Below, in pieces: positions 11,261-58,761 of a stretch of DNA of 64,000 bases. The notes beneath the pieces are model-generated. The model did no database searches, was not told the origin of the DNA, and saw only the letters and a list, made by a program, of their open reading frames with translations. A program made the translations under genes and the position numbers. Numbering within the stretch: the first letter of the stretch is position 1; each line of letters begins with the position of its first letter. The DNA is from Pseudomonadota bacterium (lineage in GTDB: Bacteria > Pseudomonadota > Gammaproteobacteria > Xanthomonadales > Rhodanobacteraceae): assembly GCA_021827205.1 (NCBI GenBank), contig JAKAWV010000001.1:62001-126000 (forward strand), in the 5' to 3' direction.

Positions 11261-11415
11261 ATGAGCGGTGTGAAAAGCCGCTTCGGCGCAGGAATATGCC
11301 GACGCGGCGGGCACGCAATTGCTTGTGGCGACGAGGGTGACGCGGCTTCGTCGCAGCCGTTTGCGCGCAAAGGACCGCTGTGAGTCGGACGGCGGGATGC
11401 TCGGTTTTACGAGCT
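11261..11415 (+). repeat. Structured intergenic element, copy A
   Basis: The 355-base gap 11068-11422 has no convincing gene. Its second half aligns with 48922-49068: I count about 26 differences in the first 111 bases and no gaps; after an insertion of about 16 bases here, similarity resumes (CGGCGGGATGCTCGG). Hairpins occupy the same places in both copies: AGCGGT/GCCGCT at 11263-11282, one at 11284-11301, a wobble-rich 10-12 bp stem near 11303-11330, GACG/CGTC near 11339-11352, and TTTGC/GCAAA at 11360-11371. A 40-codon ORF (11261-11383) is open. The first half of the gap, 11068-11200, is AT-richer and featureless. Confidence 0.55.
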
Positions 11416-11422
11416 GGTCAGC

Positions 11423-13445: not shown

Positions 13446-15068
13446 ATGAAAAACGCCATGAAGAGCATCACCCGGCAAACCCTGCTCGCCGCATTGTTGA
13501 TCGTGGCCACGCCCTTGCTCGCGCCCGTCGCGCGCGCTGCCACCAAGCCTGCGATTGCGACTGTGGCCAAGGCCGCCAAGCCGATGCTGCTGCCGATTCC
13601 CAAACCGCGCGCCGTGGTCACCCATCACAGCGTGGTCATCGCCGGTCAGCGCATCGACTACACCGCCACCGCCGGCACGCTGCTGCTGTACGACGCCAAG
13701 CACCAGGCCACGGCCAGCGTGTTCTACATCGCCTACACCAAGGACGGCGTGCGTGATCCGGCGCGGCGCCCGATCACCTTCGCCTACAACGGTGGCCCGG
13801 GTTTCGCTTCGGCGCTGGTCGATATCGGTGGTTTCGGTCCACGCCGGCTGGTGTGGCCGGCACCGGGTGACGCCAGGGCGGCGCAGCCGCCGTACCGGTT
13901 GCTGCCCAACGCCGACAGCATTCTGCAGAGCACCGACCTGGTGTTCATCGATGCGGTCGGCACCGGCTACAGCCGCATCGTCGGCTACGGCAAGCCGAAG
14001 ATGTTCTATGGCATCAACGGCGATGCGCATGCGTTCAGCCAGTTCATCCAGCGCTACCTGCAGCAGAACGACCGCTTCCAGTCGCCCAAGTTCCTGCTCG
14101 GCGAGAGCTACGGCACCACGCGCTCGGCGGTGCTGGCACGAGATCTGGTGAGCAAGGGCGTGTATCTGGACGGTGTGATCCTGTGCTCGACGGTGCTGGA
14201 TTTCGCCACGCTCAACACCAATCCCGGCAACGACTTGCCCTACGAGCTGTATCTGCCCTCGTACGCGGCGGTGGCCTGGTATCACCATCGTTTGCACCCG
14301 CAGCCGCCGGATCTGCCGGCCTTCGTGCACCAGGTCGAACAGTTCGCCGGTGGCGCCTACGCGCACGCGTTGTTCCAGGGCGCGGCGCTGCCCGCGGCCG
14401 AGAAGGCGCGCATCGCCGCGCAACTGGCGCGGTACACCGGCCTGCCGGTGACGCTGTGGCTGCGCGCCGATCTGCGCATGCCGCTGTCGGTGTTTCAGCG
14501 CAATCTGCTGGGCGATGGCGCCAGCACCGGGCGCTTCGACGCGCGTTTCACCACAGCGGAACTGCAGCCGCTGGATCCCGAATCCGGCGCCTCCGCCGCG
14601 GGCGCGGCGACCACCGCGATCTGGGGCGCGCTCAGCGCCAGCTTCGATGATTACCTGCAGAGCAGCCTGCACTACCGCAGCCAGCACCGGTACGTGCAGA
14701 CCAGTGGCGCCGTGTTCAAAGCCTGGGATTGGGGCCGCTACAAGCCGCCGCTGAGCGCACTGGCGCAGGGCGTGGGCAGCGACAAGACCCTGGGCCGCGT
14801 GCGCAACGTGGCGCCGGCGCTGGCGCGCGCCATGAGCAACGATCCGGCCATGCAATTGCTGCTCAACAACGGCTGGTTCGATCTGGCCACGCCGTTCGAC
14901 GCCACCAACTACACCATCGCGCACATGGGCTTGCCGCAGGCCCTGCAAGGCAACATCCACGAGGATTACTACGCGACCGGACACATGCTGTATCTCAATC
15001 CGGCGGTGTTGCCGCAATTGGCACACAACATCGACGCTTTCATCACCCATGCAGTCGCGCGCGGCTGA
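13446..15068 (+). CDS. Secreted S10-family serine carboxypeptidase-like peptidase (first tandem copy)
   Basis: 540 residues. The signal peptide covers about 1-31 (LLAALLIVATPLLAPVARA). The catalytic serine is in LLGESYGTTRS, the Asp is probably in NNGWFDLATPFD, and the His in YYATGHMLYL, in the right order for peptidase family S10. YNGGPGFAS forms the oxyanion region; it reads GF where the neighbouring copy reads GSSS. S10 enzymes trim C-terminal residues and usually work at acid pH. The downstream paralogue starts 48 bases later. The ATG follows CGCGGGGTGTCGCC without a strong ribosome-binding site. Confidence 0.9.
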   Translation: MKNAMKSITRQTLLAALLIVATPLLAPVARAATKPAIATVAKAAKPMLLPIPKPRAVVTHHSVVIAGQRIDYTATAGTLLLYDAKHQATASVFYIAYTKDGVRDPARRPITFAYNGGPGFASALVDIGGFGPRRLVWPAPGDARAAQPPYRLLPNADSILQSTDLVFIDAVGTGYSRIVGYGKPKMFYGINGDAHAFSQFIQRYLQQNDRFQSPKFLLGESYGTTRSAVLARDLVSKGVYLDGVILCSTVLDFATLNTNPGNDLPYELYLPSYAAVAWYHHRLHPQPPDLPAFVHQVEQFAGGAYAHALFQGAALPAAEKARIAAQLARYTGLPVTLWLRADLRMPLSVFQRNLLGDGASTGRFDARFTTAELQPLDPESGASAAGAATTAIWGALSASFDDYLQSSLHYRSQHRYVQTSGAVFKAWDWGRYKPPLSALAQGVGSDKTLGRVRNVAPALARAMSNDPAMQLLLNNGWFDLATPFDATNYTIAHMGLPQALQGNIHEDYYATGHMLYLNPAVLPQLAHNIDAFITHAVARG

Positions 15069-15116: not shown

Positions 15117-16676
15117 ATGCAACGCACCCTTGCCCTATTGCTGGCCGCCGCCACGCTCACGCTGAGTCTTGGCGTATGCGCCGCCGACGCGCCGGCCAAG
15201 CCCGAAGCGCAATCCGCCGCAGTCCACGTGGCGCCGCCCAAGGACGAGAAATCCGTCACCCACGGCAGCGTCACCATCAACGGCAAGCGCATCGACTACA
15301 CCGCCACCGCCGGTACCATCATCCTCAAGAACAAAGCCGGCAAGCCCACCGGCAGCATGTTCTACGTGGCCTATGTCAAGGACGGCGTGCGCGATCCGTC
15401 CACGCGCCCGATCGCGTTTCTGTACAACGGCGGACCCGGTTCCTCCAGCGTCTGGCTGCACATGGGCGCGTTCGGTCCGGTGCGCGTGATCAGCGGCGAT
15501 GCCCACCACACCCCGCCCGCGCCCTACAACGTGGTCAACAACAATGACTCGCTGCTGGATGTCAGCGACCTGGTGTTCATCGATGCCATGGGTACCGGCT
15601 TCAGTCGCATCATCGGCAAGGATCAGGGTGGCGTCGGCACGCCCAAGGACTTTTACGGCGTCAACGCCGACGGCAAGGCCTTCAGTCAGTTCATCAGCGA
15701 CTATGTCTCGCGCAACGATCGCTGGAACTCGCCCAAGTACCTGATCGGCGAGAGCTACGGCACCACGCGCTCGGCGGTGCTGGTCAACGACCTGCAGCAG
15801 CAGGGCATGGACTTCAACGGCGTCGTGCTGATGTCCTCGATCCTCAACTTCGAGACGGACAGCTTCAATCCCGGCAACGATCTGCCCTACATCAGCTTCC
15901 TGCCCAGTTACGCCGCGGTGGCGTGCTACCACAAGGTCACGCAGTGCCCGGCTGATCTGCCGGCCTACCTGCAGCAGGTGAAGAACTTCGCACGCGGCGA
16001 ATATGCCAGCGCGCTGATGCTGGGATCCTCGCTGCCGGCCGCCGAAAAGGCGCAGATCGTGCAGAAGCTGGCGCAATACACCGGCCTCAAGCCAAGCTAC
16101 ATCGAGAAGGCCGACCTGCGCGTCAGCCTGTTCCAGTTCATGGCCGAGCTGCAGCGCGGCAAGGATCTGGTCACCGGACGTCTGGACGGCCGTTACTCGG
16201 GTTATGCCGCCGACCAGCTGGCCGAGTACGCCGAGAACGACCCGCAGAGCGACGCCATCACCGGCGCCTATACCGCCGCGTTCAACCGCTACGTGCGGCA
16301 GACGCTGCACTTCGGCGAGGATCGCAACTACATCGTGCTCAGCGACACGGTGGGTCGCGACTGGAACTGGAAGCACTACGGCGGCCGCATCAACTGGCCT
16401 GGCTACACCAACGTCGCGCCCGATCTGGCCGCGGCCATGCGCTACAACCCGCACCTGAAGGTGCAGATCGAAAACGGCTACTACGACCTGGCCACGCCGT
16501 TCTACGGCACAGAGTACACCGTGGAACATCTGGGCCTGCCGCCGGCGCTGCAGAAGAACATCACACTGAACTTCTACGACTGCGGACACATGCTGTACGA
16601 GCAGCCGCAGTCGATCAAGGAACTGCACGCCAACCTGGTGAAGTTCATCCGCGGCAGCGATCAAGGCAATCGCTGA
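15117..16676 (+). CDS. Secreted S10-family serine carboxypeptidase-like peptidase (second tandem copy)
   Basis: 519 residues, clearly paralogous to the preceding gene along its whole length. The signal peptide is about residues 1-23. YNGGPGSSSVWLHMGAFGP is the canonical S10 oxyanion segment, LIGESYGTTRSAV holds the catalytic Ser, ENGYYDLATPFYG the Asp and YDCGHMLYE the His. This copy keeps the consensus GGPGSSS better than copy one, so their specificities may differ. The pair is probably one transcription unit for periplasmic or extracellular peptide scavenging; the substrate preference is inference. Confidence 0.91.
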   Translation: MQRTLALLLAAATLTLSLGVCAADAPAKPEAQSAAVHVAPPKDEKSVTHGSVTINGKRIDYTATAGTIILKNKAGKPTGSMFYVAYVKDGVRDPSTRPIAFLYNGGPGSSSVWLHMGAFGPVRVISGDAHHTPPAPYNVVNNNDSLLDVSDLVFIDAMGTGFSRIIGKDQGGVGTPKDFYGVNADGKAFSQFISDYVSRNDRWNSPKYLIGESYGTTRSAVLVNDLQQQGMDFNGVVLMSSILNFETDSFNPGNDLPYISFLPSYAAVACYHKVTQCPADLPAYLQQVKNFARGEYASALMLGSSLPAAEKAQIVQKLAQYTGLKPSYIEKADLRVSLFQFMAELQRGKDLVTGRLDGRYSGYAADQLAEYAENDPQSDAITGAYTAAFNRYVRQTLHFGEDRNYIVLSDTVGRDWNWKHYGGRINWPGYTNVAPDLAAAMRYNPHLKVQIENGYYDLATPFYGTEYTVEHLGLPPALQKNITLNFYDCGHMLYEQPQSIKELHANLVKFIRGSDQGNR

Positions 16677-18056: not shown

Positions 18057-18330
18057 ACCCACGACTGGCTGGTTGGTGATGCGGCGTTCGTCAGCAAGCC
18101 GGTGGCTGTGCTCAACGCCGCACCGCGCGCGCAGCATGCTGACGCGGCGCTGCGCGAGACGTTGCGCACCATGTCGGCCGTCATCGTCGAGGCGGCTTTG
18201 ATCAAGTATCCCGCTGCTCGGTGCCAATCTGACGGACGCTGGCATGGCCGCGTCGACGTCCGTATCCGGCGCGATCCGCGGCGTGCTGGCGGATCTGCAG
18301 CGCGCGGTGCTGGCGTTTCAGCCCGGATAG
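18057..18330 (+). pseudogene. Truncated, frameshifted NAD(P)H-dependent FMN reductase copy
   Basis: The DNA and its translation match the second half of the intact reductase gene at 23280-23843: DWLVGDAAFVSKPVAVLN, PRAQHADAALRETLRTMSAV, then after a +1 insertion near 18205 (ATCAAGTATCCCG against ATCAGCATTCCG) the next frame continues NLTDAGMAASTSVSGAIRG and stops at 18330. The flavin-binding N-terminal half is missing; the homology starts 39 bases after the hemB stop. It is a dead paralogue, left by duplication or recombination. The remaining 18331-18469 shows nothing recognisable. Confidence 0.88.
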
Positions 18331-18469
18331 ACGCGGGCTTTCCGCAAGCACCGAAGCTCGGCGCTACCAGCAGGGTCCAGTGCCACAGCGTCGACGCCAT
18401 GGCGCGGAGTGCACCGCGCAACCCTATGCGACCGCAGGGAGGCCTATTCGAAGCACCCTGAAGTGGCGC

Positions 18470-23279: not shown

Positions 23280-23843
23280 ATGAAAGTTCTTGCGATTTCC
23301 GGCAGTCTGCGCGCGGCATCGATCAATTCCGCGCTGCTCCGCACCGCCGCACGCCTGGCTCCGCCCGGCATGCTGGTCATGCCTTTTTCCGGAATTGGCG
23401 ACCTGCCGCTCTTCAATCCCGATTTCGAGCCGCACGTGCCGCCACCGGTCGCCGCACTGTACGCCGAGGTTGCAGCGGCCGACGCGCTGTTGATCGCGAG
23501 TCCGGAATACGCCCACGGCGTCACCGGCACCCTCAAGAACGCGCTGGACTGGCTGGTCAGTGTCGAATCGTTCGTCCGCAAGCCCGTCGCGGTGCTCAAC
23601 GCATCGCCGCGCGCGCATCACGCGGACGCGGCACTGCGGGAGACGCTCAAGACCATGTCGGCCGTCATCGTCGAGGCGGCTTCGATCAGCATTCCGCTGC
23701 TCGGTTCGAATCTGACGGAAAGCGGCATGGTGGAGTCGCCGTCGGTCTCCGGCGCGATCAGGGGCGCGCTGGTCGCGCTGCATCGTGCCGTGGTGCTGCG
23801 ACCGTCCGAACAAGGGCCGACGTTCCCTTTTGTCCCCGGTTGA
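23280..23843 (+). CDS. NAD(P)H-dependent FMN reductase (chromate/azo-reductase-like flavoprotein)
   Basis: 187 residues of the flavodoxin-like NADPH-dependent FMN reductase family. MKVLAISGSLRAASINSALL is the phosphate-binding loop for FMN, and SPEYAHGVTGTLKNALDWL is the second flavin-binding loop. These enzymes reduce quinones, chromate or free flavin. It is complete; a 3' paralogue remnant lies at 18057-18330. A WYL-domain regulator follows after 31 bases and may control it. Confidence 0.91.
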   Translation: MKVLAISGSLRAASINSALLRTAARLAPPGMLVMPFSGIGDLPLFNPDFEPHVPPPVAALYAEVAAADALLIASPEYAHGVTGTLKNALDWLVSVESFVRKPVAVLNASPRAHHADAALRETLKTMSAVIVEAASISIPLLGSNLTESGMVESPSVSGAIRGALVALHRAVVLRPSEQGPTFPFVPG

Positions 23844-48921: not shown

Positions 48922-49068
48922 ATGCTGAGCGGTTTGCAAAACCGCTCCGGCACATGGACGTGCCGTCGCGACGGGCATGCAAATGCCTGTCGCGGCAAAG
49001 GTGGCGCGGCTTTGCCGCGTCCGTTTGCTTGCAAACCTCGGCAGGATGCCAGGCTTTGCGAACTGATC
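48922..49068 (+). repeat. Structured intergenic element, copy B
   Basis: The gap between SCO (48840) and gpx (49081) is almost filled by a series of hairpins: AGCGGTTT/AAACCGCT (48928-48946), CGGCAC/GTGCCG (48948-48965), a 12-bp stem CGCGACGGGCAT/ATGCCTGTCGCG (48967-48994), CGCGGC/GCCGCG (49005-49019) and TTTGC/GCAAA (49024-49035). It aligns without gaps to 11261-11371 (about 77% identity), with hairpins in the same places. A TGCTATACC box at 48898-48906 may be its -10 region. The element's reading frame runs in frame into gpx. Confidence 0.6.
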
Positions 49069-49080
49069 TGGAGCCCGTGC

Positions 49081-49572
49081 ATGAGCCCGCTTGCCACCTT
49101 GCATGCTACCACGCTGGAGGGTGAGGACATGGCCTTGTCGCGCTATCTCGGTAAGACCCTGCTGATTGTCAACGTGGCATCGAAGTGCGGCTTCACGCCG
49201 CAATATCGTGGACTGGAGGCCTTGTATCGGCAGTACCGCGCACGCGGGCTGGAAATCCTGGGCTTCCCCTGCGACCAGTTCGGCCACCAGGAACCGGGCG
49301 ATGCCGCGGAAATCCGTCAGTTCTGCACGCTCAATTACGAGGTGAGTTTTCCGCTGTTCGCCAAGATCGAGGTCAACGGCGCCGGCACGCATCCGCTGTA
49401 TCAGTGGCTGAAACGCGAGGCCCCCGGGGTGCTTGGCTCGCAGGCGATCAAGTGGAATTTCACCAAGTTTCTGATCGATGCCAAGGGCAAGGCGCGCAAG
49501 CGCTACGCGCCGACCGATACGCCCGAGGCCATCGGCCGCGAGCTGGATACGCTACTGCCCGCCGCGGCATGA
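49081..49572 (+). CDS. Glutathione peroxidase family thiol peroxidase
   Basis: 163 residues, the usual single-domain length. VNVASKCGFTPQYRGLEALY holds the catalytic Cys (in place of selenocysteine), FPCDQFGHQEPG the conserved Gln and IKWNFTKFLIDAKG the Trp-Asn. It reduces peroxides, probably with thioredoxin or glutathione. The start is the ATG in MSPLATLHATTLEG; the same frame continues upstream through repeat copy B. Its stop overlaps the glnE start (ATGA). Confidence 0.93.
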   Translation: MSPLATLHATTLEGEDMALSRYLGKTLLIVNVASKCGFTPQYRGLEALYRQYRARGLEILGFPCDQFGHQEPGDAAEIRQFCTLNYEVSFPLFAKIEVNGAGTHPLYQWLKREAPGVLGSQAIKWNFTKFLIDAKGKARKRYAPTDTPEAIGRELDTLLPAAA

Positions 49573-58628: not shown

Positions 58629-58635
58629 CTTGCCG

Positions 58636-58761
58636 GAGCCGGGAGCCGGGAGCCGGGAGCCGGGAGCCGGGAGCCGGGAGCCGGGAGCCGGGAGCCGGGA
58701 GCCGGGAGCCGGGAGCCGGGAGCCGGGAGCCGGGAGCCGGGAGCCGGGAGCCGGGAGCCGG
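58636..58761 (+). repeat. GAGCCGG heptamer tandem array, 18 units
   Basis: Eighteen exact GAGCCGG units fill 126 bases between the glycosyltransferase and the O-antigen ligase. A seven-base unit is not a multiple of three, so adding or losing one unit changes the frame. In one frame the array reads as a repeated EPGAGSR peptide joined in frame to the ligase. It ends at AACTTTTTT, which may be a terminator with the GC-rich array. Confidence 0.95.

Follow-up and report, generated by a model that had tools for sequence, protein, structure and literature searches.

The question raised by this locus is what two similar intergenic elements, here called A and B, are doing at distant places of the window, by which we mean the whole 64,000-nucleotide stretch of DNA analysed, from a bacterium of the Rhodanobacteraceae. 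An earlier note on the window had proposed a small RNA, a riboregulator or a mobile palindromic repeat. In short, the elements belong to a structured MITE-like repeat family that was recently mobile in the host genus and has older, conserved relatives at housekeeping loci elsewhere. As to why the fold is kept, we tentatively favour, at rather less than even confidence, a reading in which this recently mobile hairpin repeat has its fold selected as RNA and its GGA loops recruit CsrA/RsmA.

Without gaps, 11261-11371 (A) aligns with 48925-49035 (B) with 26 mismatches per 111 positions, exactly as the earlier note had counted, although it had placed the start of B at 48922, three bases too early. 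The renewed similarity that it had seen further 3' is borne out by our covariance model R1, which spans 11263-11419 for A (83.4 bits) and 48927-49068 for B (160.6 bits), the third-best match in the window scoring 20.6 bits. The window does hold two strong copies, as had been said, but many additional ones occur across the genome. The flanking genes differ indeed: according to Pfam, A adjoins a gene with TPR and 2OG-Fe(II) oxygenase domains and, on its other side, a weak Band_7 match below cut-off, and B lies between SCO1/SenC and glutathione peroxidase (GSHPx domain) genes.

B is a full-length member (GAGC...GATC) of a 142-bp subfamily, with all its parts on the plus strand. Its left terminal inverted repeat is H1, the terminal palindrome GAGCGGTTTGCAAAACCGCTC (48927-48947), which pairs with the right end. 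A row of four hairpins follows: P1 (48948-48965; CGGCAC-ATGGAC-GTGCCG, with the loop GGA in CANGGANG context), placed by its fold and by loop counts in relatives; P2 (48967-48994), with a stem of variable sequence; P3 (48996-49027), with an AAA/TTT outer and a GGCGCGGCTTTGCCGCG inner stem, placed by fold and covariation; and P4 (49031-49059), with a GGA loop in GGCAGGATGCC, for which a reverse-strand fold (to 49070), covariation and loop counts speak. The right terminal inverted repeat (49051-49068, end CTGATC), recognized from the end pairing, overlaps P4. Directly downstream (49070-49083) come GGAG at 49070-49073, a putative ribosome binding site, and the start codon of the glutathione peroxidase gene at 49081. 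A (11263-11419, plus strand) is a diverged copy of a 157-bp type, carries the extra hairpin typical of that subfamily and lies antisense to both neighbours, which are on the minus strand. Sequence and alignment place its P1 at 11285-11300 (stem weakened, GGA retained), its P2 at 11303-11330 and its P3 at 11332-11363, all on the plus strand. The claim of five hairpins in each copy is true of B and not of A, since only B out-folds its own shuffles: on the plus strand, none of 200 shuffles reached the folding of B (z -7.2) and 23 of 200 that of A (z -1.35), with reverse-strand z values of -5.8 and -1.1, respectively.

The window contains further repetition of other kinds. At 58635-58760, the 7-base unit GGAGCCG is repeated 18 times in a perfect tandem array. 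The adjoining stretches 13705-14992 and 15343-16597 are 70-77% identical, which suggests a tandem gene duplication, and 18063-18343 and 23547-23826, some 5.5 kb apart, are 71-82% identical.

A search of the whole genome (3.04 Mb, 43 contigs), which the earlier note had suggested, returned three places including A when A was the BLAST query and, with B (blastn, E <= 0.1), 33 places including B, of which some 20 are nearly complete. The element is neither a pair of copies lacking covariation (33 places were found, and covariation is seen) nor, within the searches made, part of a known repeat or coding family, two outcomes against which the earlier note had set its idea. Copies at several other loci are 98-99% identical to the one on contig C20, so part of the spread must be recent. 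BLAST matches were obtained in 14 of 61 genomes, namely the own genome, nine of the 12 others of the genus, G020, G036, G039 and G058, the last two with weak matches. Exact-pattern matches in public MAGs came from Rhodanobacter sp. SulCav and from the Proteobacteria bacterium bins DX2, DS3, DS4 and ZJ1. Three main size classes, 142, ~157 and 210-242 bp, are seen in the genus, and the larger types look as if hairpins had been added. Chance similarity is ruled out by the dispersed copies in the own and other genomes. The same goes for overlap with protein-coding sequence, as 74 of 76 copies do not overlap any gene called with our own codon-model caller (coding fraction of the window 0.85), a crude tool that overlooked at least one real gene, the TPR oxygenase beside A.

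Partial forms occur as well. One relative (G011) has tandem partial copies of the 242-bp type (L109, 800-1515) beside what we take to be the RNase P RNA gene. Lone H1 palindromes, with the remainder of the element absent, are found at three loci (L172, L030 and L031), the one in L172 right at an apparent gene end; they are either remnants or an independently mobile palindrome.

The element runs from GAGCGGTTTGCAAAACCGCTCC to GGTTTTGCAAACTGATC, and its terminal inverted repeats (GAGCGGTTTGCAAAACCG versus GATCAGTTTGCAAAACCG) are imperfect; end-to-end pairing holds in 88.1% of cells over 52 copies, with weak covariation. Mobility was assessed on 76 near-full copies chosen from 112 chained matches, 74 from the host genus and two (L158 and L163) from another genus. 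The four bases left of GAGC equal those right of GATC perfectly in 31 of the 76, and the mean agreement is 0.72, compared with 0.28 for flanks of different copies (200 trials, maximum 0.345). Duplication lengths of 3, 5 and 6 at the same ends gave no signal in these copies. Next to the duplication, G follows in 42 of 76 copies and C precedes in 30 of 76. Clear target duplications are absent at both A and B. G011 and G012, with flanks 88-96% identical to the window, have an empty site in place of B, and the element is also absent there in G005 and G006; the site of A is empty in G011 and holds a 242-bp relative in G012. The mobile palindromic repeat of the earlier note is thus supported by dispersed copies, 4-bp target duplications and empty sites in relatives, and it is well supported that the repeat acts as a MITE in the host genus. 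As 112 copies from outside the genus gave no target-duplication signal, mobility is demonstrated for the host genus only.

A and B would then be copies of a non-autonomous repeat, presumably moved by a DDE transposase acting in trans. With end patterns searched in the own and 11 other genomes, no facing ends around a gene, as in an autonomous parent, were seen among the places listed. Two repeated near-matches to the ends in G011, inverted-repeat look-alikes that might have marked an insertion sequence parent, were placed within an RT-like group II intron region and next to IS110-like genes, judging from their translations. A plasmid-borne parent was dropped, the plasmid collection being without a match at E 0.01, and so was an integron attC site, because of the 4-bp duplications. 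The same genome, G011, encodes a 954-aa protein with a phage-integrase domain (L232, 3000-5864).

The wider spread of the repeat was traced with the covariance model. Matches were obtained in 82 of 233 genomes of the host family, covering 11 of 26 genera, and in 26 of 299 genomes of an order-wide sample, 15 of them outside the family (best E 4e-21); copy numbers are lower bounds, the searches having scored limited candidates per genome. Some weak order-level matches look like isolated modules. In other families of the order, the loci L219, L222, L224 and L225 show hairpin arrays with similar loops and different stems, and hairpins with GGA loops may be a frequent component of intergenic regions in Lysobacterales. 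The relatives outside the genus recur at the same loci: they separate nuoA from nuoB and prs from the L25 gene (rplY), precede rpe, an acetyl-CoA acyltransferase gene, rpsT and a Rieske gene, follow an HU gene and adjoin the S4, L10, S1 and S9 genes. These locus names were checked for 13 example proteins with NCBIfam; htpG, L19, clpS-clpA and yceD-rpmF are probable names that we read from the protein ends. At nuoA-nuoB, the element occurs in two families, that of the host (L196) and another (L208 and L209). Such sites by ribosomal-protein, energy and nucleotide-metabolism genes would represent older insertions, and from locus and direction it seems probable that every same-locus set derives from a single one.

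The fold is conserved. A MAFFT alignment of 52 copies (42 from the host genus, 10 from other genera) was the basis of model R1, a covariance model being another suggestion of the earlier note, and it extends the covariation beyond the two copies of the window. Pairing cells amount to 88.8% (slid partners reach at most 43.5%), and double changes occur in 28 of 52 pairs, compared with 11.8 (sd 2.5) in shuffles. P2 is the most variable stem and has the strongest covariation, with double changes in 10 of its 12 pairs. Among loci shared between genomes, 13 sets were folded and ten (43 copies) counted, leaving out rplA-rplJ, rpsD-rpoA and yceD-rpmF, which have two to three copies and two of which aligned poorly. 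The ten sets have 1601 Watson-Crick cells of 1754, and two Watson-Crick types that differ on both sides are seen in 86 of 414 pairs. Shuffles give a mean of 37.7 and a maximum of 47, and slid partners 5-14; shuffles serve as the reference here because the pairs were predicted from the very alignments in which they are counted, a procedure biased towards pairing. When restricted to strand-neutral pairs, that is, those predicted on both strands, the count is 81 of 373, with none from the rpe set. Such compensatory changes preserve the fold, and in our reading they reflect selection for a single strand in its folded form, most probably RNA of the plus strand.

Which molecule folds is best addressed through wobble pairs, as an excess of G.U over A.C on one strand points to folded RNA or single-stranded DNA. 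We rely on a strand-symmetric count of isolated mismatches between Watson-Crick pairs in unique contexts, since an initial split by orientation used a model-fitted alignment that leans towards G.U. In 114 copies from outside the genus, this count gave 36 G.U, 9 A.C and 54 others (p 7e-5); shuffled sequences gave 24 G.U and 17 A.C. The 74 host-genus copies gave 23, 11 and 19 (p 0.06), and a further wobble count there 98:75 (p 0.09). The plus strand also folds better in 88 of the 114 outside and 63 of the 74 genus copies, a preference that may be inherited from a single ancestor; control segments lean slightly to the plus strand too (mean -0.91, sd 7.4). The sets of 76 and 114 are not fully independent, as the same locus was sampled in several genomes. 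The outside set combines 41 of 51 and 53 of 60 matches from two hit sets with 20 further places, keeping the better matches; those dropped from the 60 were weak or repeats of the same place.

It is against this background that a plain MITE must be weighed, one with no host role, whose quasi-palindromes are corrected by template switching across the hairpins and whose gene-hitting copies are simply lost. Its mobility is directly seen in the empty sites and target duplications, its stems are nearly all Watson-Crick, and the host-genus wobble bias is not significant on unique contexts. In addition, strand-neutral pairs at shared loci hold just 39 G.U and 23 A.C among 1589 cells (15:11 at antisense loci), and with G.U this rare, upkeep of perfect DNA palindromes by template switching is compatible with the data. 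Template switching is strand-blind, however, and leaves the 36:9 ratio unexplained, as it does the persistence of the GGA loops of P1 and P4 while outer stems vary, and the occupation of the same loci in several genera, that of nuoA-nuoB even in two families. We regard this explanation as a real possibility, if a somewhat unlikely one.

A second strong rival to an RsmA mechanism assigns the elements a role like that of REP, ERIC or NEMIS sequences, in which intercistronic hairpins in the mRNA act as barriers or cleavage sites and set message stability, without a specific protein. Many copies do lie between tandem genes, and some abut a stop codon or precede a start codon by 10-28 nt. In the host genus, 65 copies with both neighbours called are directed against them as ++ (25), -+ (17), +- (13) and -- (10); among the 114 outside copies the numbers are 43 (++), 30 (--), 18 (-+) and 11 (+-), the rest having a neighbour missing. 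Hairpins that work in both directions would account for the antisense copies at rpe, nuoA-nuoB and prs-rplY, and Yersinia ERIC is reported to regulate neighbours through RNA hairpin folding. The conserved loop sequences and the wobble strand bias are left unexplained, and we consider this role quite unlikely.

It is these loops on which the reading that we favour, recruitment of CsrA/RsmA, is built. They are typically CACA-N-GGA-TGTG in P1 and GGCAGGATGCC in P4. Of the 114 copies from outside the genus, 102 have at least one GGA-loop hairpin and 62 have two, compared with 13 and 2 on the reverse strands and 34 and 2 in one shuffle per copy; in the genus (n = 74), the numbers are 68 and 43. A stricter motif, CA(N)GGANG in the P1 region, is found in 86 of the 114 outside copies, but within the genus in only 49 of 74, which weakens the RsmA reading. 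A consensus of the form (A/U)CANGGANG(U/A) was reportedly measured on RsmE, the Pseudomonas homologue. P1 fits this form and RUACARGGAUGU, and its GGA lies in a hairpin loop. PMC6692469 and PMC7652899 give RUACARGGAUGU as the CsrA consensus, state that 51 of 55 selected RNAs had their GGA in the loop of a hairpin, and quote (A/U)CANGGANG(U/A) as a second consensus. CsrA itself is encoded in the own genome (contig C22, E 3.1e-25) and in 11 of 12 genomes searched; it was not found in G001, which is 81% complete. Its presence does not discriminate, since it is also encoded in G003, G010, G025 and G035, four genomes without a model match.

The elements may bind RsmA through P1 and P4, each of which would offer a GGA loop, and a leader copy, such as B upstream of the glutathione peroxidase gene, would put its gene under RsmA control. 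The strand-biased wobble pairs and conserved GGA loops make an RNA role, as a small RNA or riboregulator, plausible. Three observations keep the RsmA mechanism a best specific guess and not a result. First, the motifs are retained equally in copies antisense to both neighbours (P1 in 21 of 30, P4 in 22 of 30) and in sense tandem copies (32 and 29 of 43), which argues against a cis role, for which the plus strand must be in the mRNA. Second, the GGA motifs of P1 and P4 are ~88 nt apart, beyond the CsrA bridging range of 10-63 nt quoted in PMC6692469/PMC7652899. Third, A itself counts against it, being antisense to both neighbours and weakened in its P1 stem.

Retention irrespective of direction would suit a stand-alone CsrB/RsmY-type small RNA that titrates RsmA, with transposition spreading the sponge genes, as would the fact that 62 of 114 copies have two GGA-loop hairpins on the same strand, and an RsmV match on the strand of the element over the first 58 bases in L006 (20.6 bits against a gathering score of 100, taken as chance). 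In many antisense copies, however, just 2-28 nt separate the beginning of the element from the start codon of a neighbour (50-224 nt in others), so that there is often no intergenic space for a promoter, and each copy offers two GGA sites and no more, which makes this sponge very improbable. For a riboswitch, no evidence was found; CAAA/TTTG segments allow two alternative foldings of about equal fit.

RsmA recruitment by the hairpin repeat, the reading that we prefer, also has to be placed among known systems. The earlier note recognized no known RNA family, and this still stands: at gathering score, Rfam reports one tRNA in the window and nothing else, and over 18 element loci, searched at E <= 1, tRNAs alone reach gathering, the weak matches over the element being taken as chance. 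Bacterial MITEs such as Chunjie, QMITE2 and Correia/NEMIS are described as short, non-coding repeats that fold strongly, vary in size, occur in many intergenic copies and have terminal inverted repeats and target duplications, features that the present element shares. Compared by description, it differs in its GC-rich modular body of four hairpins and in having structured relatives in further genera and one more family. ERIC and YPAL are likewise structured intergenic repeats of similar size, but ERIC is described as one long predicted stem-loop, whereas here we see a row of separate hairpins. REP sequences (GTAG and CGTC superfamilies) are also palindromic and intergenic; they are described as 20-40 bp palindromes with a GTAG or CGTC tag, unlike the present element, which is mostly 142-242 bp, ends in GAGC/GATC and makes 4-bp duplications. 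The names Rhodanobacter, Lysobacter, Xanthomon- and Dyella do not appear in the text of the REP paper. GGA in hairpin loops is shared with CsrA-bound leaders (glgC) and with CsrB/RsmY, and the order in B of GGA hairpins, GGAG and start codon resembles the glgC leader described in PMC6692469/PMC7652899. The differences are the mobile repeat as carrier and putative sites spaced beyond the quoted bridging range. A search of open-licence literature found no paper describing the present repeat.

What emerges is a family without an Rfam gathering match that is present in 82 of 233 genomes of one bacterial family, and that unites a recently active MITE with an RNA-like fold under compensatory change at recurring housekeeping loci, topics usually studied apart. 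In its widest form, the idea would be that of a transposable element with ready-made CsrA/RsmA hairpins: its insertions would extend the RsmA network by further genes or adjust it, and the ancient ones would have survived as regulatory RNA beside housekeeping genes across Lysobacterales; taken as a whole, we consider this unlikely. If the GGA loops do bind RsmA, transposition would be a route by which a post-transcriptional network gains members, and filled and empty sites could be compared.
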